This document shows positions 1-37,177 of a stretch of 64,000 nucleotides of DNA, piece by piece. Each line of letters begins with the position of its first letter. Positions within the stretch are counted from its first letter, which is position 1. This stretch comes from a virus. Position numbers and translations under genes: made by a program. Location of the stretch: positions 1-64,000 of the IMG/VR virus record IMGVR_UViG_3300045118_000377; one strand, 5' to 3'. A model generated the notes under the pieces. It did no database searches and was not told the origin of the DNA. It saw only the letters and a program-made list of their open reading frames with translations.

Positions 1-1080
1 GTTGGCCGACGGCTTGACCTTCCAGCAGACGGCAGGACGGTCGGGGTCTCCCTGGAAGTTGAGGCTGCGCTCGCCCAGGGGCTTGTCTCGCCTGTAGATC
101 ACAAACCCCTCGTAGCCGTGCTCGTCAAGCTGGGCCATGGCGTCTTCGTAGCTGCCTTCGAACGCCACGATCCCCATGATGTTGTCGCAGTCCATGAACC
201 CGACCTGCTGCCCGGCGGGCAGGACGGGGTCCTCCCAGCCCTCGTGAAGGGCCTCGATGAACTCGATCCAGGAGCTGCAGTTGCTCGAGAACTCCATCCG
301 CGCCCCCTTCCAGTAGGGGTTGCGGTAGACGTACGCCTGGACGAGGCCTAGCTGCTTCTGCTTGCGCAGCGCCTCCTCCGGCAGGCTGTTGGCGATCTGC
401 TGCATCATGCTGAAGTCCTTCTTGCCGCGGCCGTTGCCCATGAAGAACTCGGCGAGGAAGATCGACTCCGGCGGTAGAAGCGCGTCGAACTCCTCGACCA
501 GGTGTGGGAACTGGTCGTTGCAGACCTTCATCTTGCCGCGGCTCTGGATCCAGACCTTGTCGTGCTTGTCCTTGCTCACGACGTAGCCCATGCCGTTGAC
601 CTTGATCGTCCAGACGATCTTGGGACCTCCGATGATCTCCGCCTCCTCCGCCAGCATGTTGAGCAGGATGCCGTGGTCGATGGAGTTCACGGGCTTGGAG
701 AAGCACAGGTTCTGCGGAAGCGGCCCGTCGAAGTTCACCTCTTGGCCAGTCTGGTACTTGGAGATCTCGGCCTCGGCGCTGGCCTTCATCCAGCCGCTGA
801 GCTCGTTCAAGAGCTTGTAGCCCTCGCGGGCCTTCTTGCTGATGTCCCGGATGACCTGGTCCCTGGCCGACTGCTTGGCATCGACGTAGCCCTTGGTGCC
901 GGGCTTGCCCTTCGGGCCTGGCGTGTCGCGGGTCTCCCGCATCTTGCCGTTCTGCACGCCCCACTGGGTCACGACCTCTTCGCCCTCGACCCATGAGCGC
1001 CAGATCCTCCATCCATCCTTCCCTTGTTGTCTCATTTCTATGAAACAACTTTTTGGATCACTCATCTTATGTTTGGTCAT
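1..1080 (-). CDS. WGR-domain ATP-dependent polynucleotide ligase (3' end outside window)
   Basis: The visible 360 residues start at the ATG at 1080, which has GGAGAAGG just upstream and overlaps the preceding endonuclease gene by 14 nt. An ATG at 1065 is an alternative start. Residues 24-90 look like a WGR domain (GWRIW, TQWGVQNGK, then a KKAREGY helix). A nucleotidyltransferase domain follows: motif I K160-V-N-G163, SRGK at 180-183, LAEF at 209-212, YEGFVIY at 323-329 and WKVK at 353-356, which are motifs I, Ia, III, IV and V of covalent nucleotidyltransferases. The enzyme should adenylylate its lysine and seal nicks. Motif I is KxNG rather than the KxDG usual in DNA ligases; T4 RNA ligase 2 has KxHG, so an RNA or mixed substrate is possible. 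The OB-fold end lies beyond the window. Confidence 0.8.
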   Translation of the reverse strand, partial: MTKHKMSDPKSCFIEMRQQGKDGWRIWRSWVEGEEVVTQWGVQNGKMRETRDTPGPKGKPGTKGYVDAKQSARDQVIRDISKKAREGYKLLNELSGWMKASAEAEISKYQTGQEVNFDGPLPQNLCFSKPVNSIDHGILLNMLAEEAEIIGGPKIVWTIKVNGMGYVVSKDKHDKVWIQSRGKMKVCNDQFPHLVEEFDALLPPESIFLAEFFMGNGRGKKDFSMMQQIANSLPEEALRKQKQLGLVQAYVYRNPYWKGARMEFSSNCSSWIEFIEALHEGWEDPVLPAGQQVGFMDCDNIMGIVAFEGSYEDAMAQLDEHGYEGFVIYRRDKPLGERSLNFQGDPDRPAVCWKVKPSAN

Positions 1081-1600
1081 CTGATCCTTCTCCTGGGAGA
1101 TTGAGCGCGGCGAAAGCTCCATATAACTCACGCGCAGCAGCATCATAAGCTTTTGCTGCAGCAAGCTCGTCCTCGAATAGTCCGAGGTATCTGGGTGTCG
1201 GTGCTGTGATCTGAGCCGCCCATTTGCGTGCTGCTTTGTGCCAGTACACGCCGTGGAATCTAGATGATCCTACCCGTTTGTGGATCCTGTTACGCTGATT
1301 TTGTGTGTGGGTAGCTGCTCTGAGATTCTGCCTCTGATTGTTCAAACCGTCCCCATCCTTGTGATCCACTTGGTCGACTTGACCAAGTAGAGCGCGATGC
1401 ATGTAGACCGTCTTCCTGGATCCATTCACATCCTTGGTTGCTGTGCGCACAGCATACCAAGTAGACCTTCCACGAACAGCGCGCCATTTGTAGTTGATCA
1501 ATTTATCGTAGTCTTCATCATTCACAAGAGCGACCTGTCCTTGTGTCAGGGGAATCTTTCGCACAGGTTCTCCTTTCACGAAGTCAACTTCTGGTTTCAT
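1067..1600 (-). CDS. HNH-AP2 homing endonuclease
   Basis: This is a free-standing homing endonuclease, expected to cut DNA at a specific site and spread its own gene. The family-typical opening IPLTQGQVALVNDEDY is followed by YMHRALLG and VDHKDGDGLNNQRQNLR (HNH core with D-H and N-x-R), then a C-terminal AP2/ERF-like DNA-binding domain (GVYWHKAARKWAAQI, AAKAYDAAARELYG). The ATG at 1600 has AAGGA 4 nt upstream. A GTG at 1564 with GGAGA upstream would begin exactly where the family usually starts, and a TTG at 1648 is also in frame. It lies directly upstream of, and overlaps, the ligase gene. Its DNA looks less GC-rich than its neighbours, as expected of an invading gene. Confidence 0.88.
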   Translation of the reverse strand: MKPEVDFVKGEPVRKIPLTQGQVALVNDEDYDKLINYKWRAVRGRSTWYAVRTATKDVNGSRKTVYMHRALLGQVDQVDHKDGDGLNNQRQNLRAATHTQNQRNRIHKRVGSSRFHGVYWHKAARKWAAQITAPTPRYLGLFEDELAAAKAYDAAARELYGAFAALNLPGEGSDDQT

Positions 1601-1686
1601 GAAGTCCTTATACCCGTGCCCGGCAGGTTCTTGCAATCCGATCTTCAAGCTAAGAAGAGCGCGTAGTGCTGCTCTTCGTCCGGGCG

Positions 1687-2037
1687 CTACAGCTCATAGC
1701 CATATCCCTGCGGCGGGTCCTCGTAGAAACACTCAACGATCTCTTCTACAGCCACTGGGATACCACTTCGCTTGTGCCGATCGCAGCAGTACTGCCATCG
1801 CTTGTACGCGCGCGCGATGCGCGCGTACCACACGTCGAAGTCCGGGTGGGTGTCAGCGTACGCGCCACCCGCGGCCGCGAACCCCAGCTCCTGCAACTCT
1901 CCCATCTCTAGGGGAACGTTCCTCATGAGGAACGTTCCGATGGCGGCCAAGATCTCCATCTGGCCGCGGTTGCTCGCTTGCTTGGCGATCTCCTGGAAGA
2001 ACCGTTTGACTGGGTCGGCATTCCTCTTCTTAGCCAT
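1687..2037 (-). CDS. Small protein of unknown function
   Basis: The 116-residue product is not recognised. It is basic at the N-terminus (MAKKRN), has a predicted helical first half (QEIAKQASNRGQMEILAAI) and an aromatic second half with WYARIARAYKRWQYCCDRH and a tyrosine-rich tail. The start is well supported: AAGAAAGGAG lies 7 nt before the ATG, and a phage-type promoter sits immediately upstream (2065-2093), so the gene is probably transcribed alone. Between its stop and the downstream endonuclease start is a short gap of about 40-85 nt without clear features. Confidence 0.75.
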   Translation of the reverse strand: MAKKRNADPVKRFFQEIAKQASNRGQMEILAAIGTFLMRNVPLEMGELQELGFAAAGGAYADTHPDFDVWYARIARAYKRWQYCCDRHKRSGIPVAVEEIVECFYEDPPQGYGYEL

Positions 2038-2064
2038 AAACGATCTCCTTTCTTGGTTACTGAT

Positions 2065-2093
2065 CTTATCCCCTACGGGTGATCGGTTTTGCA
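2065..2093 (-). promoter_or_regulatory. Phage-type promoter for the gene at 1687-2037
   Basis: Read on the minus strand: TGCAAA (2093-2088), 17-nt spacer containing CGATC, then GATAAG (2070-2065). It is followed by the leader AACCAAGAAAGGAG and the start codon. The same layout recurs upstream of 14086, 15237 and 15329, which is why it is called a promoter. Confidence 0.65.
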
Positions 2094-2094
2094 G

Positions 2095-2119
2095 CTAAAA
2101 AGAGCCCGTTGCGGGCTCT
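2095..2119 (-). terminator. Rho-independent terminator, leftward
   Basis: A perfect 8-bp stem (AGAGCCCG / CGGGCTCT) with a 3-nt loop is followed on the minus strand by a T-run. It would end leftward transcription arriving from the 3605-6460 operon and the repeat field. It lies immediately before the next promoter, so the downstream gene is insulated. Confidence 0.75.
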
Positions 2120-3604
2120 AGTACAGGTAGGTTGGGTGACCAGTGCTGGTCGGCGCGATCGATTTCGTCGATCGGCCAGCAGCGTATCGCGCGAGCGGGT
2201 TACAGCTTGTCAGCCGGCGCGGGAAGGCGTGGCCATCGTCGCGACTGGACCAGTCTCGTCAGATGACACGACCCGAGGCGTACTGATCCTGCTTGTCACC
2301 AGACTTGGATCACGTAGTGATGGCTCGTCTGGTGGAAGGCGCAGAGCGGCATCGGCCCGCATTGTCATTCGGCTTGCGGATCGAAAGGGCAGCTCCGGGG
2401 TAGGGTTGTCGCCGGGCTTGCAGAGTCCGGTAGGGGCGCAGCTTGTCAGCTGTTGTGTTGGGACGGCCGTACTGTCACGCGAACTGTCTGAGGAGAGGCC
2501 GTCACTCGGTAGGGTGGTCCAGGGAAAGCATCGGCATGTCACATGCCGCGATCCGAGAGGTCGTGAGTGGTGCTAGCTTGTCACTTGACAAGGATCGTCG
2601 CGCGATGAGTGGACTCGTCGTTCGTAGCGAGAAGGATGAGTACGGTCTGGTGCGAAACGTCGCTCGGCAGGGGTGACCGGGAGGCAGGGTTGCCAGAGCT
2701 TGTCGAATGAGCGAACTGCGTGGAGTTGGGTTGCGATGTCTCGGGGCAGGGATGGGTTCCCGCACGATCTGGACGCGGTGCAGCTTGTCAGCTGGATCGT
2801 TAGGGCTGGTACGTCACTTGGCAAGAGCTCGTCGATTGCGATGGCTCGAGCCGAATGATCGCGTAGGGACAAGAGTCGGCTCGTCGCTGGGCCTGAGTGG
2901 AGCGCCGAGACCGGTGAAGGGTAGTCGTGCGGATAGGACAGTCTTTGAACGTCGGCAGGCCAGATCCGAGCAGACTGGTCTTGTCGCTCGACGCGTCACG
3001 GTGCGGCATGCAAAGCCACGTCATTTGCAGTGTGCAGCGAGGAGAAGCGATCCGTCGATCGACTAGGTCAGGGAGACGTGTCATCGGGGTCAGCAGGCCA
3101 CGAGAAAGCTCGTCGCACGGGCAGATACGGTACATGAAGACGCAGCTGGACTCGTCGACCGCGGCGGGAAGGCTTGCCCGAAAGGACAAGGCAGTAGGCT
3201 CGGGTAGTCATCTGACCTGGTATGCTCAATGAGGTCGCATGCAGCGACCCGCTTCGATCACGACTCGACTCGTCACATGGCCCGCAACGCCAAGGGTCGC
3301 TATGCACAAGCTCGTCGCGCGGTAGAGAAAGGTTCAAGCTGATCCAACACGTCCGCTGTCGAGGGTTGGCGAACCTAGTCCCGTGATACGGCTTGTGATG
3401 TCACGCTCAGACATGGCTCGTCGTGCGGCTCACGTCGATCTCGCGTGGACCAGTCGCAGGAATTGGTGGGGAGCGATGCAACTGATCTTGGCGGCGGGTA
3501 GTCGGCAGAATCGATCGGTCCAAGGAGGAATAGTCGGTGGTTGCGAGAAGAGCGGGAGGGTCGCTGGTACTGAGATCGTTAGAGGTTCGGCTTGTCTACC
3601 TGCC
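2120..3604 (+). repeat. Non-coding field of degenerate direct repeats (core RCTYGTCR)
   Basis: No reading frame here looks like a real protein. The octamer [AG]CTYGTC[AG] occurs at 2205, 2291, 2441, 2576, 2613, 2698, 2783, 2827, 2879, 3108, 3150, 3268, 3310 and 3416, always on the plus strand. Weaker variants such as TCTCGTCA (2254), GCTCGTCT (2323), CATTGTCA (2360) and GCATGTCA (2534) fill some gaps. About 0.2 copies would be expected by chance. Gaps of 37-52 nt and about 85 nt are frequent, suggesting a loose period near 42 nt. Some cores sit in small inverted repeats (CAGCTTGTCAGCTG). It may be an iteron-like origin, a partition or packaging region, or a protein-binding array; the function is not known. 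Confidence 0.6.
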
Positions 3605-3862
3605 CTAGCGATCAGGTTCCTTCAGCGACTCTCCCCAGGTGAGAACCTCGGCTGGTAGGGCCGTGGCGCTCACGTCCCATTTGGCTCCTTCGTCCAACCG
3701 CGGCATGGCCAGCAGGAGGTCGGAGATACGATTCTCCACCACCCGCTGGCTGGGAATGTTCTCGCCCATCGGCGCTCGCACGTAGACCCGTATGCAGATG
3801 TCGTAGTGGCCGGCGTCCCCGACGTACCGTGCGGGGACATCACCATCAGGTCGGGTCTTCAT
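3605..3862 (-). CDS. Unknown small protein, last gene of leftward operon
   Basis: The 85-residue product is not recognised. It contains a beta-like stretch (YDICIRVYVRAP) and a C-terminal SATALPAEVLTWGESLKEPDR typical of small alternating-strand phage proteins. The ATG at 3862 follows GGAGAAGGCAC and overlaps the end of the preceding gene by 17 nt, so translation is probably coupled. Downstream lies the long repeat field, and the first strong terminator is at 2119-2095. Confidence 0.75.
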   Translation of the reverse strand: MKTRPDGDVPARYVGDAGHYDICIRVYVRAPMGENIPSQRVVENRISDLLLAMPRLDEGAKWDVSATALPAEVLTWGESLKEPDR

Positions 3863-4316
3863 GTGCCTTCTCCAGCTTTTTGGCAGCCTCCACCACCGCG
3901 TCCCAGGTGTTGCCTCCCTCTATGCCATTGGCGCTGATGGCCAACCACCAGCCACCAAACTCGCCCGCGCGGGGTTTGGAACACGTGCCGGCTCCGGTCA
4001 TGGTGAAGATCTGCGTCGGTCGGAAGCGGCGAAGGAACGCCTGGACGAACCAGATCAGGTGATTCTCATCGAACTGATCCTCCGCATACAGGTGCAGCCG
4101 TTTGTGCTTGGTGTCATTGTAGATAGACCACTCGAAGTTCGGCCAGTTGTCCAGCGCGTCGGGCTCGAGGTCGACCTCGAGCCCTAGGGCGTCGTAGACC
4201 TTCATCACCTCCTCATCGGTCTCGGTGGGCATCCGGAGGATCTCGTTGACCCACTTGTCTTCGCGCTTCTTGATCTTGTCGATGACTTCGCTGAATTGGG
4301 AATAGCTGTCAGCCAT
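3846..4316 (-). CDS. Unknown protein
   Basis: The 156-residue product is not recognised. It has an acidic, helical N-terminus (FSEVIDKIKKREDKW), then a mixed domain with WSIYNDTKHKRLHLYAEDQF and HLIWFVQAFLRRFRPTQIFTMTGAGTC. The later part (FGGWWLAISANGIE, then a helical tail) suggests a compact alpha/beta fold. A GGGAGAAG site precedes the ATG. The gene overlaps its upstream neighbour by 8 nt and its downstream neighbour by 17 nt, in keeping with an operon of coupled genes. Confidence 0.78.
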   Translation of the reverse strand: MADSYSQFSEVIDKIKKREDKWVNEILRMPTETDEEVMKVYDALGLEVDLEPDALDNWPNFEWSIYNDTKHKRLHLYAEDQFDENHLIWFVQAFLRRFRPTQIFTMTGAGTCSKPRAGEFGGWWLAISANGIEGGNTWDAVVEAAKKLEKAHEDPT

Positions 4317-4650
4317 CGGTCTTCTCCCTCTCTGGATGTCCGACCCAGCCGGCAGGGTCTTCCTGGGCGCAGTCGGAGAACGGGCAGGTCTCGTCCGGGC
4401 AGCGGCCGTCCTTCAAGGACGCCCCGCACCTGGCGCAATGGATCTCCTGCAGGAGTTTGATGTCGTCGTTGGTCGTGCCGTCCGGCATGTCGTGCAGACT
4501 GACCCACACCCACGCCTGGACGTAGAGCCCGTCGTCGGGCGGGTCGGCGATGGAGAACTTGGTCTCATCGTCGATCTCGATGTCGCCATCCTCTTGGTAC
4601 TTGGATCGAGCGACATCGATCACGGTCTGTTTCAGCTCGTCCTTGGTCAT
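4309..4650 (-). CDS. Zinc-ribbon-like small protein
   Basis: The 113-residue protein has an N-terminal alpha/beta part (ELKQTVIDVARSKY; acidic IEIDDETKF; YVQAWVWVSL) followed by four to six cysteines arranged CARCG ... CPDETCPFSDC. This resembles a treble-clef or zinc-ribbon site. The function is unknown; a role in nucleic-acid or protein binding is only an inference. The start follows an unusually long GGAGGAGGAGGAGG ribosome-binding site lying inside the end of the preceding gene, so it is likely well translated. Confidence 0.75.
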   Translation of the reverse strand: MTKDELKQTVIDVARSKYQEDGDIEIDDETKFSIADPPDDGLYVQAWVWVSLHDMPDGTTNDDIKLLQEIHCARCGASLKDGRCPDETCPFSDCAQEDPAGWVGHPEREKTDG

Positions 4651-4862
4651 GACCTCCTCCTCCTCCGGAGTTTGCGCACATGGTGAATCACGTTGTCACG
4701 GGTGAACTCCATGTCCTCCTCGAGCAGCTCCATGATCTCGTTGTGCATTCGCTGTCGTCCCTCACGGAAGCCGCGCATGAAGGAGTCGGCATCGAAACGT
4801 CCCAACAGCTTCTCCACGCCCGTGAGGAAGTCCTGACGGCTCATGACTCTGGACTTGGGCAT
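4647..4862 (-). CDS. Small helical basic-tailed protein
   Basis: The 71-residue product is probably all helical (FLTGVEKLLGRFDADSFMRGF, MHNEIMELLEEDMEF) and ends in a strongly basic tail, KLRRRRRS. The function is not recognised; nucleic-acid binding is possible from the tail. Its ATG overlaps the stop of the upstream gene (TGATG arrangement), and its own stop overlaps the next ATG, so it is fully embedded in the operon. Confidence 0.72.
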   Translation of the reverse strand: MPKSRVMSRQDFLTGVEKLLGRFDADSFMRGFREGRQRMHNEIMELLEEDMEFTRDNVIHHVRKLRRRRRS

Positions 4863-5137
4863 CAGTCGCTCTCCGGCTCGGGCTCCGGCCCCACGCGGTC
4901 GTAGGGCTCTTGGGACTCCTCCTCCTCCTCATCCTCGTCCACGTCCACGTTGCTCTTCAGGGTCGACTCGATGGAGTCGAGGTCGTAGCCCTGGCTGAGC
5001 AAGTAGTCGATCTGCGCGGTCGTGCCGGAGTTGTTGATGTCGGTCGCCTCATTCGACTTCATGTCGTGGACCTCGCCATCCAGCGCATCACTCAGGTGGT
5101 GCTTCTCGGCGTAGGCGATCAGCTGTTCGCGGGTCAT
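4862..5137 (-). CDS. Acidic small protein
   Basis: The 91-residue product is unrecognised. It opens MTREQLIAYAEKHHLSDAL, has a middle region with a GYDLDSIESTL helix, and ends in a very acidic tail (DVDEDEEEEESQEPYD and a Glu-Pro run). Highly acidic phage proteins sometimes mimic DNA, but nothing else supports that here. AAGGAGG precedes the ATG, and the coding sequence overlaps both neighbours. Confidence 0.75.
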   Translation of the reverse strand: MTREQLIAYAEKHHLSDALDGEVHDMKSNEATDINNSGTTAQIDYLLSQGYDLDSIESTLKSNVDVDEDEEEEESQEPYDRVGPEPEPESD

Positions 5138-5376
5138 GTGCCCTCCTTCTCGTCGATGTCAGCGCGCGAGATGCGGTTGGGATTGAAGTAGACGTTGACG
5201 TAGACGATGTTCCTCCAGGTGCCGTCGGAGGCCGGCTCCATCTCGTGGATCTCTGGCAGGGCCGCCTGCAACGTCTTCAGAGCTTCGTCCTCGCTGTCGG
5301 CCTCGACCTCCGCGCAGAAGCCGACCGGCCCGTCATCCGAGTCTCCCAGGCTGAAGTGGTACCTAGCCTTCGGCAT
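5134..5376 (-). CDS. Unknown small protein
   Basis: The 80-residue product reads as one small alpha/beta domain: ARYHFSLGDSDDGPVGFCAEVEA, then a helix DEALKTLQAALPEIHEM, then NIVYVNVYFNP. It resembles the many small 'DEAL'-helix phage domains of unknown role. The ATG follows an AGGTG site and overlaps the preceding gene by 14 nt. Confidence 0.74.
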   Translation of the reverse strand: MPKARYHFSLGDSDDGPVGFCAEVEADSEDEALKTLQAALPEIHEMEPASDGTWRNIVYVNVYFNPNRISRADIDEKEGT

Positions 5377-5602
5377 AGCTGCACCTGATATCGACCTCGT
5401 TGTCGTTCTCGTCGAACACCGGGCCGTCCCAGATGAACATCAGCGGCCGGCTATGCTCGTCGTCCACCGTGAACGGGTGGTCCTCCTGGTTGAGCCGGTT
5501 GCACTCCGGTGTGAAGATGGCGAGCAGCGCCTCGACGTTCGCAGCCTCGATGATGACCGAGCCGGGATGGCAGATGTCCCCCATCAGTCTGTACTTGGGC
5601 AT
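5363..5602 (-). CDS. Unknown small protein
   Basis: The 79-residue product begins MPKYRLMGDICHPGSVIIEA and continues with a helix (NVEALLAIFTPECNRL) and a strand-rich end (PLMFIWDGPVFDENDNEVDI). It is similar in plan to the next gene downstream (strand, helix, strand), so the two may be distant paralogues; that is an inference. A GAGGAG site is placed 7 nt before the ATG, and the gap from the upstream RAMP-like gene is 3 nt. Confidence 0.74.
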   Translation of the reverse strand: MPKYRLMGDICHPGSVIIEAANVEALLAIFTPECNRLNQEDHPFTVDDEHSRPLMFIWDGPVFDENDNEVDIRCSYAEG

Positions 5603-5605
5603 GGG

Positions 5606-6460
5606 CTACTCCTCTGCCTCGGCATCCGCCTTCTTGCCCTTGCCGGCCGTGCGCGCCTTCTTCTCGTAGATCGGGGTCTCGACCTTGGCCGTCTGCTTCA
5701 TGCCCACGATCTCCACGCGCCCGAAGCCCTGGCTGCGGCTCGCGCCCCACCCGTTGTCCTGGCAGAGGGTGAGGAAGAAGACGAGGTCCTTCTCGCTGAC
5801 CTTCACGGTGTTGCCGGATGCCGCGCGCCGGAGCTCGAACTTGAACTCGGCACCGGGGGCCACGTACTCGTGGATCTTGATGGTGGAGCGCGGACCCTGC
5901 GGGCCGGTGATGTGGGCGACCATGGTCTCGGTGCCATCGGGCCCCTTCAGGATCTTGCCGTCGCGGTAGAAGAAGATGGCGTCGGGGTGATCGATGCCGC
6001 GGGCGAACATCGCGTGCTGGATGACCTGCTTGGAACCCCAGTCGCTGACGGTCTTGCCCAGGGTCGTGGCAGCCTCACGCAATCCGGCCTTGATCTGCCT
6101 GCTCTCCACGAAGATGGCCCCGCGGAAGGGCTCGAGCGTCGGGTCCTGCGCGATGCGGTCGTCGTCCACGACCTTGAACACGCACGTGCTCTTGTCGCTG
6201 GCGGCCTCGGTCTCGACCGCCGGGTCCTTGGTGGCGGCCTCCGCGATGCGAGCCTTGGCGGCGTCCACCACCTCCTGGGTGACCAGCCCCTTGCGGGCGC
6301 GGGCCTCGAGCATGGCGAGCTCGGCCTCGGCGTTCTTGGGCCAGCCGGCGAGCATCTTGTTCGCCGTCTGGCAGGTGATGACCCACTTCTCGTAGAGCTG
6401 GTCGGCCCCGTACTTCTTCATGAGCTCCTGGAAGCTGTTGACTGGTCCGGTCTTGTCCAT
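5606..6460 (-). CDS. RAMP/Cas7-like protein of unknown function (first gene of operon)
   Basis: The 284-residue protein opens the leftward operon. After a helical N-terminal part (residues 1-80) come FRGAIFVESRQIKAGLREA (112-130), RSTIKIHEYVAPGAEFKFEL (191-210) and the glycine-rich loop GWGASRSQGFGRVEI (237-251). This order (a LreA-type helix, a charged strand, 'pG..f.f.l' and a G-rich loop before the last strand) resembles RAMP-fold proteins such as Cas7. Similar stand-alone proteins are found in phages and integrative elements outside CRISPR loci. The tail is Lys/Ala/Glu-rich. No CRISPR array or cas genes lie nearby. The start has AAGGAG 7 nt upstream. RNA binding is an inference only. Confidence 0.6.
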   Translation of the reverse strand: MDKTGPVNSFQELMKKYGADQLYEKWVITCQTANKMLAGWPKNAEAELAMLEARARKGLVTQEVVDAAKARIAEAATKDPAVETEAASDKSTCVFKVVDDDRIAQDPTLEPFRGAIFVESRQIKAGLREAATTLGKTVSDWGSKQVIQHAMFARGIDHPDAIFFYRDGKILKGPDGTETMVAHITGPQGPRSTIKIHEYVAPGAEFKFELRRAASGNTVKVSEKDLVFFLTLCQDNGWGASRSQGFGRVEIVGMKQTAKVETPIYEKKARTAGKGKKADAEAEE

Positions 6461-6510
6461 GACACACTCCTTGTTGTGCGACCTCAGTCGCTGAATGGGG
6501 ATCTGAAGGA

Positions 6511-6540
6511 CTTATATCAACGATCCGAGTGGAATTCGTA
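6511..6540 (-). promoter_or_regulatory. Likely promoter of the leftward operon
   Basis: On the minus strand a TATAAG box (6516-6511) lies 17-18 nt from TACGAA/ACGAAT, with GGATCG between them. It resembles the TGCAAA...ATAAG promoters near 15280 but with a poorer upstream box. It would drive the RAMP-like gene and the seven genes after it. Confidence 0.42.
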
Positions 6541-6542
6541 GC

Positions 6543-6572
6543 CCGAAAGGACTGCGATTTCCTTGGGATAAG
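6543..6572 (+). promoter_or_regulatory. Likely promoter of the rightward small-gene operon
   Basis: CCGAAA (6543-6548), an 18-nt spacer containing GCGAT, then GATAAG (6567-6572) and AAACTACAAGGAGG leading to the ATG at 6592. The -10-like box, short leader and strong Shine-Dalgarno match the other phage-type promoters in the window. Together with 6511-6540 it makes this a divergent control region. Confidence 0.52.
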
Positions 6573-6591
6573 AAACTACAAGGAGGTCAAC

Positions 6592-6807
6592 ATGGCTTTG
6601 ATCGAGATCTTCGTGGGCATGCCGTTGGACAACTTCCAGCGCCTGGCCAAGACCGACAAGAAGGCGGCCGCGGTCGCGTTGAAGGACGAGCTCAAATCGT
6701 TCAACGCCTACCTCGAGAGTCAGCGGATGGATCCGATGGGGCGCATCGAGGAGTCGATCGTCCGCGAGTACATCGGCTGGAAGCTGATGGAGCGAAAGGA
6801 TGGCTGA
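6592..6807 (+). CDS. Small unknown protein, first gene of rightward operon
   Basis: The 71-residue product starts MALIEIFVGMPLDNF; the start is fixed by AAGGAGG 6 nt upstream, rather than an earlier in-frame start at 6529 that would lie inside the promoter. It is mostly helical (DKKAAAVALKDELKSFNAYLE). The function is unknown. It overlaps the next gene by 8 nt and heads a run of sixteen coupled genes up to 11296. Confidence 0.75.
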   Translation: MALIEIFVGMPLDNFQRLAKTDKKAAAVALKDELKSFNAYLESQRMDPMGRIEESIVREYIGWKLMERKDG

Positions 6808-7027
6808 TCCACGATGGGTACTGGGAAACTCTCTGCGCGATCTGGAAAGCGACATCAACGATTGCGAACGGATCGTCGCCAACGGCGGACGTCCAAGCTA
6901 CGACCTGCTGGGGACGCTTCGGGTCAATCTCGAGGTGTCCGAGGGCAATCTGAACGTGGCGACATCCAGTCAAGCGATCCAGTTCGACGAGCTTCAAAAG
7001 CGCGCCAGGCAGATCCTAAAGAAATAG
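6800..7027 (+). CDS. Small helical protein, unknown
   Basis: The 75-residue product is predicted helical, with two coiled-coil-like stretches (LRDLESDINDCERIVANG; LGTLRVNLEVSEGNLNVAT) and a basic end (KRARQILKK). It resembles the small antiparallel hairpin proteins common in phage early regions, but no family is recognised. The ATG lies within the end of the upstream gene. Confidence 0.7.
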   Translation: MADPRWVLGNSLRDLESDINDCERIVANGGRPSYDLLGTLRVNLEVSEGNLNVATSSQAIQFDELQKRARQILKK

Positions 7028-7035
7028 ACCTGGTG

Positions 7036-7188
7036 ATGAAGATCGCTCCCGATGGCTGGTTCGACGCGCGTGACATCGGCGTGCCGAAGACCAGGCTCAT
7101 CGAGCTGGCCAAGGCCCACCCCGACATGCTCGAGTCCCATCGGGACCAGGCCAACATCTACTTCAAGGTGAGACGATGCCGAGACTGA
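7036..7188 (+). CDS. Short unknown protein
   Basis: The 50-residue product reads DGWFDARDIGVPKTRLIELAK followed by DQANIYFKVRRC, consistent with a tiny winged-helix or HTH-like fold. An adjacent in-frame GTG at 7033 is an alternative start. It sits between two well-supported genes in the same operon and overlaps the next one by 13 nt. The ribosome-binding site is weak, so it probably depends on coupling. Confidence 0.6.
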   Translation: MKIAPDGWFDARDIGVPKTRLIELAKAHPDMLESHRDQANIYFKVRRCRD

Positions 7189-7496
7189 AGAAGTTCAGCC
7201 GCAAGCGACTGATGGAAGTGCTACAACGCCTTGATCGTTTCAGGGTGTTCGCCAACGTCAACGTCATCGCTCGGGAGAGTGAGAACTCGCCGCCCATGGT
7301 GGAGATGGAGCTGCAGAAGCTCGTGCAGGAGGAGAAGGCCGTTGCCATCAAGATCGCAGCCTACCATCCAGAGACCGGTGAGCTGGGTGAGGAGACCTGT
7401 TATCGACTTGGCGTGCCGGTCAAGCCGAGGATGTCGGACATCTACATGCGGATCATAGATGAAGAGGACGCCAAGAAGAGGAAGAGGAGACGCTGA
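7176..7496 (+). CDS. Possible winged-helix-like small protein
   Basis: The 106-residue product has a basic N-terminus (MPRLKKFSRKRLMEVLQRL), then NVIARESENSPPMVEMELQKL. That pattern (a helix, then a helix that reads across S-P-P) resembles a winged helix-turn-helix. A strand pair (AVAIKIAAYH, CYRLGVPVK) and a lysine/arginine tail (DAKKRKRRR) follow. DNA binding is plausible but unproven. It is coupled to both neighbours. Confidence 0.65.
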   Translation: MPRLKKFSRKRLMEVLQRLDRFRVFANVNVIARESENSPPMVEMELQKLVQEEKAVAIKIAAYHPETGELGEETCYRLGVPVKPRMSDIYMRIIDEEDAKKRKRRR

Positions 7497-7678
7497 TGGC
7501 GCGGATGAGCAGAAAGAAGATGGTCGAGCGGATCATTGAGGGGCACGTGGAGGAGATCAGCGAGTGGGCGCTGAGAGACCTGGACTCCTTGCGTGCCTGG
7601 CTCACAGAGGTCCTCGGTCTCAGGGCCATGGACGTCCGCACTTTGCAGGAGGAGTTCGGCTCCTACTTGGAGGAGTGA
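7496..7678 (+). CDS. Short helical protein, unknown
   Basis: The 60-residue product (KKMVERIIEGHVEEISEWALRD ... LRAWLTEVLGL ... LQEEFGSYLEE) is helical and amphipathic. It starts one base before the end of the upstream stop codon (TGATGG arrangement) and shares its last base with the next gene. No family is recognised. Confidence 0.7.
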   Translation: MARMSRKKMVERIIEGHVEEISEWALRDLDSLRAWLTEVLGLRAMDVRTLQEEFGSYLEE

Positions 7679-8031
7679 TGCACTCGTCGCCGCGTCAGGG
7701 AACAGGCAAGGGCTGGTTGCGCGAGTGGGAAGACGAACAAGAGCTCACCAGGGAAGAGCAGAAGGAAGCCGACAGGCTGAAGCGGATAGAGGACGCGCAG
7801 ACAGCTCAGATCCTCGAGGACATCCGCATGATCCGATTGGAGGAAGAGCACCAGGAGGAGAAGCGCAAGAGCGACCTGCTCTCCGCCAAGGGGTACTTGA
7901 AGGACTGCGGCTGGTCGGACGCCGCGATCTGGGCGCTCTCGGACGACGAGGTGCTGGAGGCGGCCGAGACCGAAGCCGTGTACGCGGAGGAGGTCTACGA
8001 CTTCTACGGCGATGAGGGAGACCCCCGATGA
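7678..8031 (+). CDS. Charged coiled-coil protein, unknown
   Basis: The 117-residue product starts at the ATG overlapping the previous TGA. Residues 15-65 are very rich in Glu, Lys and Arg and should form a long helix or coiled coil (RLEEEHQEEKRKSDLL). The C-terminal part (GYLKDCGWSDAAIWALSDDEVLEAAETEAVYAEE) looks like a small helical domain. Its function is unknown. The gene ends 4 nt into the next one. Confidence 0.7.
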   Translation: MHSSPRQGTGKGWLREWEDEQELTREEQKEADRLKRIEDAQTAQILEDIRMIRLEEEHQEEKRKSDLLSAKGYLKDCGWSDAAIWALSDDEVLEAAETEAVYAEEVYDFYGDEGDPR

Positions 8032-11710: not shown

Positions 11711-12100
11711 ATGGCAACGAAGAAGGCCGAGAAGAAGTCGAACGGGGAGCCGAAGAAGGGGCTGAGCGCGAAGGATCGCAAGGCGCTCGAGAAGAAGCGC
11801 GACCAGCTCTACAGCGTGAGGGACGCCAACGAAGACCTGCCGTACGACATGGTCGACACGGTCAACTCGCTCAGCGACAAGAAAGATCTGAAGTCGCTCA
11901 AGACCGTCCTCAAGACCGTGGGGGTCGACGGCACCAAGTTCCTCGCGGCCATCGACAAGCTTCAGGCCGAGTGGAAGGCCCTCAACGTGAAGATGGACAA
12001 GGCGTCCAAGGCCGCGGAGAAGGAGATCGACAAGCTCGACAAGCAGCTCGGGAAGGACGAGCCCGACAAGCCCTCGCTCAACCCCACCTTCTCGTTCTAG
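11711..12100 (+). CDS. Lysine-rich helical protein, unknown
   Basis: The 129-residue product begins MATKKAEKKSNGEPKKG after GGAGGAGATC. It is very rich in Lys, Asp and Ala and almost entirely helical (KALEKKRDQLYSV; LKSLKTVLKTVGVDGTKFL; KASKAAEKEIDKLDKQLGKDE). This fits a small histone-like or coiled-coil protein, but no specific family is recognised. It is isolated between non-coding stretches and so may have its own promoter, which is not evident. Confidence 0.72.
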   Translation: MATKKAEKKSNGEPKKGLSAKDRKALEKKRDQLYSVRDANEDLPYDMVDTVNSLSDKKDLKSLKTVLKTVGVDGTKFLAAIDKLQAEWKALNVKMDKASKAAEKEIDKLDKQLGKDEPDKPSLNPTFSF

Positions 12101-12533
12101 CCCACCCGCCAGCACCCTATCCTATGCGTCCGGCTGCCCCAGGGCGGGCCGCAGGCGGTACGGGAGCCCCCCTGAGTAGCAGTCCGGGCCCCGAGCGCTC
12201 CTGCGGCCGCCTGGGCGGCCTGGCGGCTGTCCTGGAGTGTGTCATTTTTCCCACATACTGGATGTAGGCCGTGTGGCGCTGTATCCGGTATCACTGGTCG
12301 CGCTGTCGGATTGTTCTTGGCATCGGAATAGTCGTTTTTGATTGACTTCCACGTTCAGATCGATCATTGGTGGGGTATGACGTTCAAGAACTACTCGCCA
12401 ACATTGCGCGCGTGGATCAGGAACCATGCGCACGGTGCTTCGCCGGGCGGCTGACCTCCTGAGTCAGCCATGATGCCGAGACGGCCGCCCAGGAACTTCC
12501 TGTGGCGGCTTTGTTGTATCTGGAGATTGGATC
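12101..12533 (+). other. Intergenic stretch of 433 nt with hairpins
   Basis: No convincing gene is seen. A GC-rich inverted repeat (GGCCGCC/GGCGGCC, near 12210) followed by a T-run near 12243 may terminate the gene at 11711. A 25-codon frame at 12377-12454 (MTFKNYSPTLRAW...) has a GGTGGGG site and could be a tiny peptide. Its stop lies in a GGCTGAC/GTCAGCC hairpin at 12449-12469, next to GC-rich sequence. Confidence 0.4.
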
Positions 12534-12928
12534 GTGGGTTGGAAACATAGACTGTCGGATCTGGATCTCAAGTCTATGACCGCGACCTGTGCAGTTTGTG
12601 GCCGGGCACGAGAATCAGATTCAGAGACGGTGGCTCCAGCCGACCAAGGTGTGCGACCAGGGACAGCAACTGGCGTAGCCAACGAGGAGTTGATCATACG
12701 CACTTGCGTTGGGTGCGTGCTCGCGAAGAGATGGTCAGACTGCAACATGGGCGGTGCGCCATCTGTGACAAGAAGAAGGTGTTGGTGCTTGACCATGATC
12801 ATGTTACCGGAAAGATCCGTAACGCTGTCTGCTACTCTTGCAACATGATCTTGGGCAGTATCGAGACCGCGATGAGCAAGGACTTGCTGTCTGCTTTCTT
12901 GGACTACATCGCTTGTCACAAAGATTGA
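12534..12928 (+). pseudogene. Endonuclease VII-type gene broken by a -1 frameshift
   Basis: The first frame (GTG at 12534, GGAG upstream) reads KHRLSDLDLKSMTATCAVCG, the usual opening of endonuclease VII-family homing nucleases. It then loses meaning. From about 12600 a second frame continues the domain: RIRFRDGGSSRPRC, then GRCAICDKKKVLVLDHDHVT and CYSCNMILGS, the zinc/HNH core. Adding one base to the C-run of TGTGGCCGGGC would join the two frames into one protein. Either the gene is decayed, the sequence has an error, or a frameshift is used. It is inserted in a non-coding patch. Confidence 0.75.
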
Positions 12929-12938
12929 GGAGATCGAG

Positions 12939-13160
12939 ATGCGAACCAGCGCGATGAGAGTGACCAAGACCAAGACCGAGGGCCGGGTCGTGTGTCAGTG
13001 CGGCGCGGTCCTGTCTCTCGTCCAGCCGGCGCAGAAGGAGAGCGCGGAGGTCGAGGAGCGTGATCCGTCCACCAGTGGGCAGATCATCATCCACGACGAG
13101 CATCTCCGTGACCAGCTGGAGAAGGTGCTCGGCTTCCGGCCGTACTCCTTCGGTCGCTGA
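12939..13160 (+). CDS. Small protein with CxC motif
   Basis: The 73-residue product reads MRTSAMRVTKTKTEGRVVCQCGAVL and later GQIIIHDEHLRDQLEKVLGF. A single C-Q-C pair is seen, not a complete zinc site. GAGGAG lies 7 nt before the ATG. The gene follows the broken endonuclease by 10 nt and is followed by a terminator. The function is unknown. Confidence 0.65.
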   Translation: MRTSAMRVTKTKTEGRVVCQCGAVLSLVQPAQKESAEVEERDPSTSGQIIIHDEHLRDQLEKVLGFRPYSFGR

Positions 13161-13173
13161 TCTCCAACTCCTA

Positions 13174-13197
13174 CCCAGCGCGCGCCCGCGCGCTGGG
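13174..13197 (+). terminator. Strong GC hairpin, probable terminator
   Basis: CCCAGCGCGC and GCGCGCTGGG make a perfect 10-bp stem with a GCCC loop, followed by GTTCCTGTTG. It sits just after the stop at 13160. The T-run is weak, so the strength is uncertain. Confidence 0.55.
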
Positions 13198-13220
13198 GTT
13201 CCTGTTGCCTGAGTGAGACC

Positions 13221-13646
13221 ATGCTGAACTTGACCCTTGCGTTCATGAAGGACAACGACGAGCGACCTTACTCGTGGGTGGACCTCTGCATCGAGCTCGC
13301 AGACCAGGTCATGCACTGGACGGAACGACGCGGCCTGAAGGTCGAGCCCATCACGATCGAACCGCTGGATGGCAAGTACCTGTTCTCCCCCGTAGGGGAG
13401 GGTTGGGCACTCCACCAGGTGATCTTGTGTGGAGGCAAGGTCCACGACATGTACGTGGAGGAGCCGATCGCTCTCGGGCCGTACCTGGAGGTGATGTTCC
13501 CCGGGCAGCGCCTGCGCGTGGAGTATCCCGACCGTGACCCCGTTGGTCTGCACGAGCTGACGAAGCCGGTCGCGATCTACGATATCTGGAAGGATGGCGT
13601 GCTCGAGCTACGTGTTGACACCGACAGCCTGCCCGCGGTAGCCTAG
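13221..13646 (+). CDS. Unknown protein
   Basis: The 141-residue product begins MLNLTLAFMKDNDERPYSWVDLC and contains a strand-rich core (ITIEPLDGKYLFSPVGEGW; HQVILCGGKVHDMYVEEPI; YLEVMFPGQRLRVEY). A beta-barrel-like domain is likely, but no family is recognised. It lies between two terminators and so forms its own transcription unit. Confidence 0.7.
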   Translation: MLNLTLAFMKDNDERPYSWVDLCIELADQVMHWTERRGLKVEPITIEPLDGKYLFSPVGEGWALHQVILCGGKVHDMYVEEPIALGPYLEVMFPGQRLRVEYPDRDPVGLHELTKPVAIYDIWKDGVLELRVDTDSLPAVA

Positions 13647-13675
13647 AACTCTCGATGCTCGTGCTCCTTCCTGGC

Positions 13676-13707
13676 GGCCCTCGGGTGATCCCGAGGGCCA
13701 TTTTTTT
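13676..13707 (+). terminator. Rho-independent terminator, rightward
   Basis: GGCCCTCGGG and CCCGAGGGCC form a perfect 10-bp stem with a TGAT loop, followed by A and seven T residues. It ends the unit of the gene at 13221-13646 before the convergent gene at 13754. Confidence 0.92.
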
Positions 13708-13753
13708 ACGATCAAGCTAAGAACAACTGGAATGGGATGGCCAGAACATCGGC

Positions 13754-14086
13754 CTAGCGGAAGAACCTGCGGAGGTAGGTGAGCGTGGCGGCGAGCACCG
13801 CTTCGAAGCAACCGCCCACCAGCTGGCCGTCGAAGGAGAGCTGGTAGTAGCGGTCGTAGCGGCGGACGATGCAGACCATCTCGTCCGCCACCTTGATGAC
13901 CAGACGGTGGCAGTCTGGGTCGATCAGCTGGGCCTCGACCGTGACGTTCTCGTTCACGTCGCGGACGAGCTGGTCGTCGAACTCCAACTGCTCCAGGATC
14001 GCCTTCCAGTCGACGTGCTGGAGGTCTGGTGCCGCACCCCAGAGCTCTCTGAGCTTAGGTCCCTGCACCAACTGCATGGTGATCAT
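13754..14086 (-). CDS. Unknown protein
   Basis: The 110-residue product (MITMQLVQGPKLRELWGAAPD...) has a helix-rich first third, a central strand region (NVTVEAQLIDPDCHRLVIKVADEMVCIVRRYDRYYQLSFDG) and a C-terminal helix. The family is not recognised. AAGGAAGGAG precedes the ATG, and a phage-type promoter lies 25-60 nt upstream. Confidence 0.72.
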   Translation of the reverse strand: MITMQLVQGPKLRELWGAAPDLQHVDWKAILEQLEFDDQLVRDVNENVTVEAQLIDPDCHRLVIKVADEMVCIVRRYDRYYQLSFDGQLVGGCFEAVLAATLTYLRRFFR

Positions 14087-14112
14087 AATGATCTCCTTCC
14101 TTGGTTACCGTT

Positions 14113-14142
14113 CTTATCCCTAGGAAGGTGATCGATTTTTCA
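14113..14142 (-). promoter_or_regulatory. Phage-type promoter for the gene at 13754-14086
   Basis: On the minus strand: TGAAAA (14142-14137), an 18-nt spacer with CGATC two bases after the first box, GATAAG (14118-14113), then AACGGTAACCAAGGAAGGAG. The leader is almost the same as that of the promoter at 2065-2093. Confidence 0.65.
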
Positions 14143-14275
14143 GCTAAAGTGAGATCCCACGGCCTGGGTCGGTCGCGGCTGTGGGTCTTCTGAGGGTGAC
14201 CACACCCCCGGCCCGCGGCGGCCGCCTGCACACCGTGGGGTCTCGGTGCGCACCTGTCCATGGGTGGACGTGGTT

Positions 14276-14304
14276 CTTATCTCTTGCGGAGTACAATTTT
14301 TGCG
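14276..14304 (-). promoter_or_regulatory. Second leftward promoter-like site
   Basis: On the minus strand: CGCAAA (14304-14299), a 17-nt spacer, GATAAG (14281-14276), then AACCACG. It lacks CGATC and has no gene directly behind it; transcription would cross about 130 nt of GC-rich hairpins before the next promoter at 14142. Confidence 0.45.
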
Positions 14305-36226: not shown

Positions 36227-37177
36227 GTGGCCACCATCAAGATCAAGATCTACGTCTCCGAGCTGGCCAACGTCATGACGTTGTACGACAAGATCTCCGT
36301 GCAACGATCGACGACCGCTCCTCCGTCCACTACCGAGGACGACCTCACAGCCAACTCATCGGCACCAGCGACTCTCGTCGGCTCGCTCGAGGGACCGTAC
36401 CTCCTCAACGGCAAGACCCTGACGTTCAAGGTCAACGGCACGCAGGTCTCCGTGACCTTCACGTACGCCGACCCGGTCGCGATCACCCAGGTCGTGGATG
36501 CCGTGAACGCGGCGCTCGCGGCCGCGGGCCTGGGTGCGACAGCCGATGCCTACGGCGGCAAGCTGCGGATCAGGACCACTTCCAACGGCACGCAGTTCAC
36601 GTTGGAGATCATTAGCGGTTCTGCTGTCACGGTTCTGGGGTTCACTGCCGGGCAGAAGGCGCACGGCCTCGCCGCTCACATCACGCTGGTCGTTGGCACG
36701 ACCCAGTATGAGTTCGACGACGGCAGCGGGCTGGCCTCCTACTACTACCGATCTCGCTTCTTCAACACCGCCAATGGTACCTACAGCGCGTGGAGCGACT
36801 GGATCCAGGGAACGACTGGAGCCGCCATCCCGTCGGCCGATCTCATCATCGGAAAGGTCAAGCTGGCCGATCTGGATGGGAAGGCACTTCCGAACCGTGT
36901 GATCACCATCGGCAACGCCATGGAGCCCAGCAAGGCGGATGGGTACGGGATCTTCGGGGCGGCGATCACGCTGGAGACTGACGGCACGGGGCAGGCTGAG
37001 ACAACGCTTGTGAAGGGATCGCTGGTGGATGTAATCTTCAATGGTACTTCCATCGTCCGGCGAATCCGGGTGCCGTCATCGGGGACTGAGTTCGACCTCC
37101 TGGACGACTCGCTGGTAGTGGGAGACGAGTTCGAAATCCAGGTGCCGGACATCCCCTATGCCCCTCGGAGATCGTAA
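36227..37177 (+). CDS. Baseplate/tail protein with flagellar hook-IN-like domain
   Basis: The 316-residue product (GTG start) contains LNGKTLTFKVNGTQVSVTF, VVDAVNAALAAAGLGATADA and LRIRTTSNGTQFTLEIIS with VLGFTAG. This is the pattern of the 'Hook_IN' domain: '.L.i.vdG......it.....t...v...iNa...g..a....g.l.l.s......i.i......a...lG'. The end is beta-rich (VIFNGTSIVRRIRVP). Related units occur in the 41538, 45411 and 49924 proteins, so a common building block decorates the baseplate. Confidence 0.65.
   Translation: MATIKIKIYVSELANVMTLYDKISVQRSTTAPPSTTEDDLTANSSAPATLVGSLEGPYLLNGKTLTFKVNGTQVSVTFTYADPVAITQVVDAVNAALAAAGLGATADAYGGKLRIRTTSNGTQFTLEIISGSAVTVLGFTAGQKAHGLAAHITLVVGTTQYEFDDGSGLASYYYRSRFFNTANGTYSAWSDWIQGTTGAAIPSADLIIGKVKLADLDGKALPNRVITIGNAMEPSKADGYGIFGAAITLETDGTGQAETTLVKGSLVDVIFNGTSIVRRIRVPSSGTEFDLLDDSLVVGDEFEIQVPDIPYAPRRS

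Follow-up and report, generated by a model that had tools for sequence, protein, structure and literature searches.

A Five-Nucleotide Lattice in a Phage Non-Coding Region Probably Encodes an RNA Scaffold for a Cas7-like Protein

Results

A long non-coding gap in the window, by which we mean the whole 64-kb stretch of viral DNA that was analysed, is written in a five-nucleotide register, and the same operon encodes a protein with a predicted Cas7 fold. The explanation that we consider probable is that the ~1.45-kb untranslated RNA read from this gap serves as a scaffold on which the Cas7-like protein, acting independently of CRISPR, polymerises. Both the register of the lattice and the protein partner are inferred with good support, and together they look like an undescribed kind of RNA-protein system.

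A five-nucleotide register in the gap

The original prediction had drawn attention to 14 RCTYGTCR octamers in this gap. All 14 positions proved exact and all lie on the + strand: positions 2126–3604 contain 14 matches on the + strand and 0 on the − strand, compared with 0.52 ± 0.71 (maximum 4) in 1000 dinucleotide-preserving shuffles, so the excess is real, although the earlier expectation of 0.2 was slightly low. The remainder of the window holds 36 matches, both strands counted. The gap is indeed non-coding, with a 3-base periodicity of 0.4–1.3 across 2001–3800 (genome median, 5.6). Its recurring spacings are also real and follow a rule; distances from one GTC to the next are mostly 7+5n (37, 42, 27 and 32 nt), and the spacing is much more even than chance (CV 0.49 versus 0.89 ± 0.12). 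The octamer is the junction of a pentamer and a heptamer, and is the strongest part of a 5-nt lattice. The presence of this element agrees with the expectation that so long a gap amid packed genes has a role.

From 2131 to about 3600, the + strand consists of pentamers GNNNN interrupted by heptamers GTCRNNN, with an anchor base that is G in 86% of pentamers and A in 12%. G is enriched around GTC at −25, −20, −15, −10, −5, 0, +7, +12, +17, +22 and +27, a set of peaks that denotes a 5-nt lattice whose step lengthens to 7 nt at GTC. Between 2165 and 3600, the 224 pentamer anchors comprise 192 G, 27 A, 2 C and 3 T (purines, 219/224), GTC is present in 40 of 45 heptamers, and insertions amount to 7 bases. 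The parse is almost continuous over 2131–3600.

We described the lattice by a hidden Markov model with two units, the pentamer GNNNN and the heptamer GTCNNNN, training on one half of the region and scoring the other. The two halves scored +72.8 and +64.3 nats, compared with −32 ± 7 and −42 ± 7 for dinucleotide shuffles; the cross-validated score is thus ~15 SD above the shuffles, and the reverse complement scored negative. The posterior gave a segment at 2131–3576 (mean 0.99) and no other in positions 1–8000. Among 15,930 scanning windows from this genome and 13 relatives, the lattice region was the sole one to score, the best other value being −1.7. These relatives were obtained through DNA polymerase and, because the window's 1–9 kb is unaligned in them, they serve as lattice-negative controls and not as tests of conservation. 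T7-type primase sites, which contain GTC, were considered and rejected, as they leave the 5-nt anchors unexplained.

A large structured RNA was among the roles proposed for the gap at the outset. RNA is the best-supported of those options, but base-paired structure is not: local folding of both strands gave z-scores no better than controls, and scans of the region against Rfam at gathering and relaxed thresholds found no match, with no covariance-model match to the large RNAs GOLLD, ROOL and OLE. The lattice RNA resembles GOLLD, ROOL and OLE in being long, untranslated and borne by a phage or bacterium, and it ends in a terminator; those RNAs, however, have a conserved base-paired structure, which was not detected here, and the letters between lattice anchors are unconserved. 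A large base-paired RNA of this type is the least probable of the readings we considered. A repeat search of the region returned short degenerate families only; the fixed elements are GTC and single anchors, not identical repeats with spacers.

Gene context and transcript

The coordinates of the lattice and its operon are collected in Table 1. Since the flanking genes lie on the − strand, the predicted transcript carries one C per 5 nt together with YGAC marks, in the layout 5′-(NNNNC)n NNNYGAC (NNNNC)n..., and the YGAC or GAC mark recurs at intervals of 27–42 nt. The RAMP-like gene belongs to this leftward operon too, ~2 kb upstream of the lattice. Among the lattices compared, a terminator was detected in the window's alone.

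Table 1. Features of the lattice operon in the window.
Feature	Position	Strand	Remarks
Next downstream gene, 116 aa	1687..2037	−	No assigned function; own ribosome-binding site past the terminator
Intrinsic-terminator-like hairpin	2101..2119	−	AGAGCCCG-CAA-CGGGCTCT + TTTTT; 3′ end of minus-strand transcript
Lattice RNA region	2131..3600	− (transcript)	From HMM parse
Small co-directional ORFs between RAMP gene and lattice	3605..5602	−	No assigned function; 3605-3862, 3846-4316, 4309-4650, 4647-4862, 4862-5137, 5134-5376, 5363-5602
RAMP-like protein, predicted Cas7 fold, 284 aa	5606..6460	−	Putative lattice partner; C-terminal Gly-rich loop GWGASRSQGFGRVEIV

The transcript strand is C-rich and G-poorer, lies between co-directional genes and, in several phages, is upstream of late genes, features that would also suit a transcription-control leader whose C-rich untranslated RNA recruits Rho and is protected by a RAMP coat (antitermination). 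However, rut sites load Rho without any strict 5-nt register or GAC heptamers and do not have to extend over 4 kb, and we regard such a leader as very unlikely.

Ten ORFs of the window's 1–6.5 kb were scanned against PHROG and Pfam, and neither these nor the scanned neighbours of three other lattices matched cas10, cas5, cas6, cas1 or cas2. A Nop domain was likewise not matched among scanned neighbours, nor was an initiator or ParB family among genes near the lattice. The window's 1–6 kb gave no blastn match in INPHARED phages, and no close relatives were found via the proteins at 3846–4316 and 5606–6460 and the ligase.

An HNH endonuclease with an AP2 domain (1067–1648, −) separates the lattice operon from a DNA ligase-like ORF at the contig end (1–1164, −); a second match to ATP-dependent DNA ligase lies at 37158–39809 (+). 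Across 15.6–33 kb and 41–61 kb of the window, most of the large + strand ORFs tested (≤1365 aa) lack a PHROG match, and the structural module of this phage is, as judged by sequence, very divergent. At another locus, L010, one ORF with an Endonuclease VII match also matches UvsX-like and helicase proteins (859–2997, −; genome 80.9–83.0 kb), and a helicase ORF contains an internal HNH match (11996–14293, −; genome 92.0–94.3 kb). Relatives align to parts of these two ORFs only, and both are possibly inteins or fusions.

Recurrence in other phages

Two exact-pattern scans of IMG/VR, with matches filtered by the lattice model and by sequence uniqueness, found the lattice in at least about a dozen other phage groups, at lengths of 0.6–4 kb and with unrelated inter-anchor sequence. 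Among the matches listed are L195/L306 (units 27 and 32), L161, L285/L267/L276, L252, L272/L227/L264, L243, L286, L259, L266, L311 and L298/L275 (4 kb), as well as weaker lattices at L124, L240 and L160. Slash-joined loci such as L195/L306 carry identical lattices, and L319, found later, is identical to L227. All of these relatives were found by patterns or proteins derived from the window element, in contigs that are incomplete; the lattices reach far past the matched search pattern. Their anchors are 82–96% G and the remaining four positions are close to background composition, with some lattices preferring G right after the anchor. Tandem coding repeats of 12, 15 and 33 nt produced false positives (L105, L131, L141, L163, L165, L180 and L187), which were removed through HMM extent and sequence uniqueness.

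The longest lattice, ~4 kb, is found in phages of ~50% GC (L298:4000-8100 and L275:3200-7200). Its special step is 8 nt, not 7, and in one of these genomes (G017) the RAMP gene is ~19 kb from the L298 lattice. A weak lattice-like region without a detected RAMP gene, on a 38-kb contig (L160:7080-7750), is possibly a diverged member or a fragment.

Wherever orientation was callable, which excludes L298/L275, the flanking genes are co-directional and are coded on the strand opposite the G strand, and the RNA therefore carries NNNNC and NNNYGAC. This orientation bears on whether the lattice is instead a double-stranded DNA site (an origin, centromere or packaging site), in which a protein would contact a G once per half-turn of the helix (5.25 bp) along 1.5 kb. 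Steps in the window average close to 5.25, the period 5.25 gives the strongest G signal, and some lattices lie directly upstream of the terminase operon. However, other phages average ~5.4 per step (units 27 and 32), which is off the DNA helix, and an exact half-turn period, suggested by the window alone and not kept in other phages, was rejected. Lattice orientation also tracks local transcription, but the lattice may share the strand of the structural genes, as in one genome (G000), or lie opposite to it, as in another (G015). The partner has a predicted RNA-binding fold and is not an initiator, ParB or terminase. Unlike an iteron origin or centromere, the lattice has single bases as anchors, not conserved repeat units. 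We therefore judge a DNA site to be very unlikely, and the iteron origin, centromere-like site and packaging site of the original prediction each go without support.

Co-occurrence of lattice and RAMP gene

Every strong-lattice genome examined encodes one ~220–300 aa family, of which the protein at 5606–6460 is the window's member. A profile of this family searched against 228 contigs retrieved 19 ORFs, all in lattice contigs or in L182, a RAMP contig with a weak lattice signal only. Because this profile was built from lattice neighbours, independent weight rests on protein-first and whole-contig searches. When 9 further contigs were searched whole, the RAMP gene was found in 7 of them with E ≤ 1e-36; it was absent from L160 (38-kb contig) and L113 (10.6-kb contig), whose lattices are weak or partial. 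In the protein-first search of viral contigs, a lattice adjoins the RAMP gene in 9/9, including L319, which the pattern had missed. The same approach revealed a lattice variant directly after the RAMP gene of Microcystis phage Mae-JY09 (lattice at about 38464–38860, RAMP protein WWT39994; score 0.2, where controls average −34 with an SD of 9) and, just upstream of RAMP genes, lattices in Streptacidiphilus carbonis NBRC 100919 (score 20) and in Actinomadura sp. KC216 (~320 nt at the contig end, score −2.6). A scan of genome contigs with alignment A2 gave no match. Contigs that hold both always have the C-lattice RNA on the coding strand of the RAMP gene.

In the Streptacidiphilus carbonis lattice, near-identical repeat copies flank a stretch of N (L330:7486-7780), which reflects an assembly gap or masking. 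In L243, a second, shorter RAMP-like paralogue (2937–3404, +; E 7e-7), counted among the 19 ORFs retrieved by the family profile, lacks most of the Gly-rich loop and lies directly upstream of the full-length gene. Many lattice phages also carry, beside the RAMP gene, a conserved family of ~200 aa with the motif ARFFERHP..VPILSMTREELLVAAE, which has no Pfam or NCBIfam match. Its members include L161:6900-7499(-), L285:5615-6265(-), L252:6582-7184(-), L272:4282-5091(-) and L286:6000-6644(-), with others in L321, L240 and L182; it was not found in the window's phage.

Predicted fold of the RAMP-like protein

AlphaFold2, given 15 homologues, modelled the protein with a pLDDT of 80.7 and a pTM of 0.72. 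The top 50 Foldseek matches in the PDB are all chains of type III/VII CRISPR effectors (probability 0.95–1.00, E 1e-5 to 6e-4), with modest TM-scores of 0.32–0.41 by query length. On this model, the protein is predicted to belong to the Cas7/RAMP superfamily and to have the RRM-like RAMP fold common with Cas7. A motif near its C terminus, GxGAxRSxGxG, is kept in the 15 homologues, and the Gly-rich loop matches that of Csm4 at a marginal E of 0.008–0.01, the NCBIfam Csm4 match being below cut-off. No curated Cas7 family model passed; Pfam and NCBIfam scores were far under their cut-offs (Cas6_C 13.6 of 23, Csm3 14.2 of 90). Among viral predicted structures, one named match comes from Siphoviridae sp. 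ctcMb1, where it is annotated as a "Cas system-associated RAMP superfamily protein". Viral RAMPs that stand alone have thus been annotated before; a partnership with a lattice was not described in the papers searched on phage Cas7 with long RNA, on solitary RAMPs and on Mae-JY09.

Letters between the anchors

L161 and L285 have RAMP genes that are 83% identical and downstream flanks that are 95% identical as far as the lattice boundary, but their lattices cannot be aligned with each other. This divergence may have arisen by neutral drift, since the lattice would belong with the 83% block if recombination had broken the sequence at that boundary. Some lattices contain internal partial duplications. 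One GTC-delimited module is common to L285:3584-3625 and L227:5849-5890 (= L319), lattices that are otherwise unrelated, with an N4 agreement of 19/20 against a maximum of 17 in 30 shuffles.

Such turnover of inter-anchor content, the whole module common to unrelated lattices, and a layout like a handle followed by a repeated-subunit spacer would fit a guide array, in which 30–100 GAC-delimited modules act as crRNA-like guides that pair through four of every five letters while the protein holds the anchor C. The RNA would then be an RNA-guided weapon or regulator, and the phage would have a CRISPR-independent programmable system of Cas7-fold filaments with dozens of guide modules, aimed at nucleic acids of the host or of rival elements and rapidly rewritten. 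However, anchor-masked windows matched their own phage genomes no better than shuffles did, a fixed C in every 5 nt is hard to square with guides copied from targets, and neither cas1/2 nor Cas6 nor a nuclease was identified as a partner. We consider a guide array, and the programmable system it implies, unlikely.

Discussion

Our proposal is that the region is read leftward as an untranslated RNA within an operon that also encodes the RAMP-like protein. One RAMP subunit would bind each NNNNC, reading the C, at ~270 anchor points in the window RNA. The YGAC heptamer, every 27–42 nt, would add 2 nt and mark a cap or restart, so that each module spans 7+5n nt. On this RNA the protein would polymerise, either as one long helical ribonucleoprotein filament or as modules of 4–8 subunits strung together. 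Such an arrangement would resemble a type III crRNA, with its 5′ handle and repeated-subunit layout, but with 5-nt instead of 6-nt steps; YGAC may resemble the end of some type III 5′ handles. The use of this RNA is most likely counter-defence, as a decoy copying class 1 CRISPR backbones, a view that we hold weakly and favour since the inter-anchor letters can vary freely. Scaffold and decoy fit these free letters, whereas a guide array fits the turnover and the shared module, and we weakly rank decoy or scaffold above guide array.

Preferred bases every 3 or 5 nt set a protein-RNA register in the TMV assembly origin, potexvirus coat protein and TRAP RNA. The folds of these proteins are unrelated, and none of these systems is known from a phage in combination with a kilobase lattice and heptamer marks.

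Among known systems, class 1 Cas7 proteins line RNA periodically, kinking or flipping every sixth nucleotide (PMC11127173). The partner described here shares with the type III/VII backbone subunits (Csm3, Cmr4, Cas7) a predicted Cas7 fold with a Gly-rich loop, and the lattice shares with RNA in those complexes a periodic register and a handle-like mark followed by n equal steps. Unlike theirs, its step is 5 nt and not 6 (PMC11127173), its anchor base is fixed in the sequence, and its RNA is 0.6–4 kb long, without repeats or spacers and without Cas10 or other cas genes identified nearby. Racrs are also phage non-coding RNAs, and for RacrIF1, one of these RNA-based anti-CRISPRs, the estimate is a filament of 8–9 Cas7f along the RNA (PMC10651486). 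Racrs, however, are solitary copies of host CRISPR repeats and use host Cas proteins (PMC10651486), whereas a lattice phage brings its own protein of predicted Cas7 fold, and the lattice RNA matched none of the CRISPR-DR families in Rfam. TIGR-Tas similarly pairs a phage-borne tandem RNA array, with units of ~36 nt, with a dedicated protein (PMC12045711). Tas has a Nop domain, unlike the Cas7-fold lattice partner, and TIGR units have conserved edge and loop repeats, two spacers and a fixed length (PMC12045711), whereas the lattice fixes nothing but single anchors and GAC, and its units differ in length by steps of 5.

As these data illustrate, a conserved element may escape BLAST, Rfam and repeat finders and still be marked by sparse sequence patterns that cannot be aligned. 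In unrelated phages, the register of a filament protein seems to be written into the genome itself, one base in five, over 0.6–4 kb. If this is true, a Cas7-fold protein would have a role outside CRISPR, with a long RNA of its own and a 5-nt step, which to our knowledge is not found in class 1 effectors. The system may prove to be a CRISPR decoy of a new kind, a novel RNA-guided system or a novel biological polymer.
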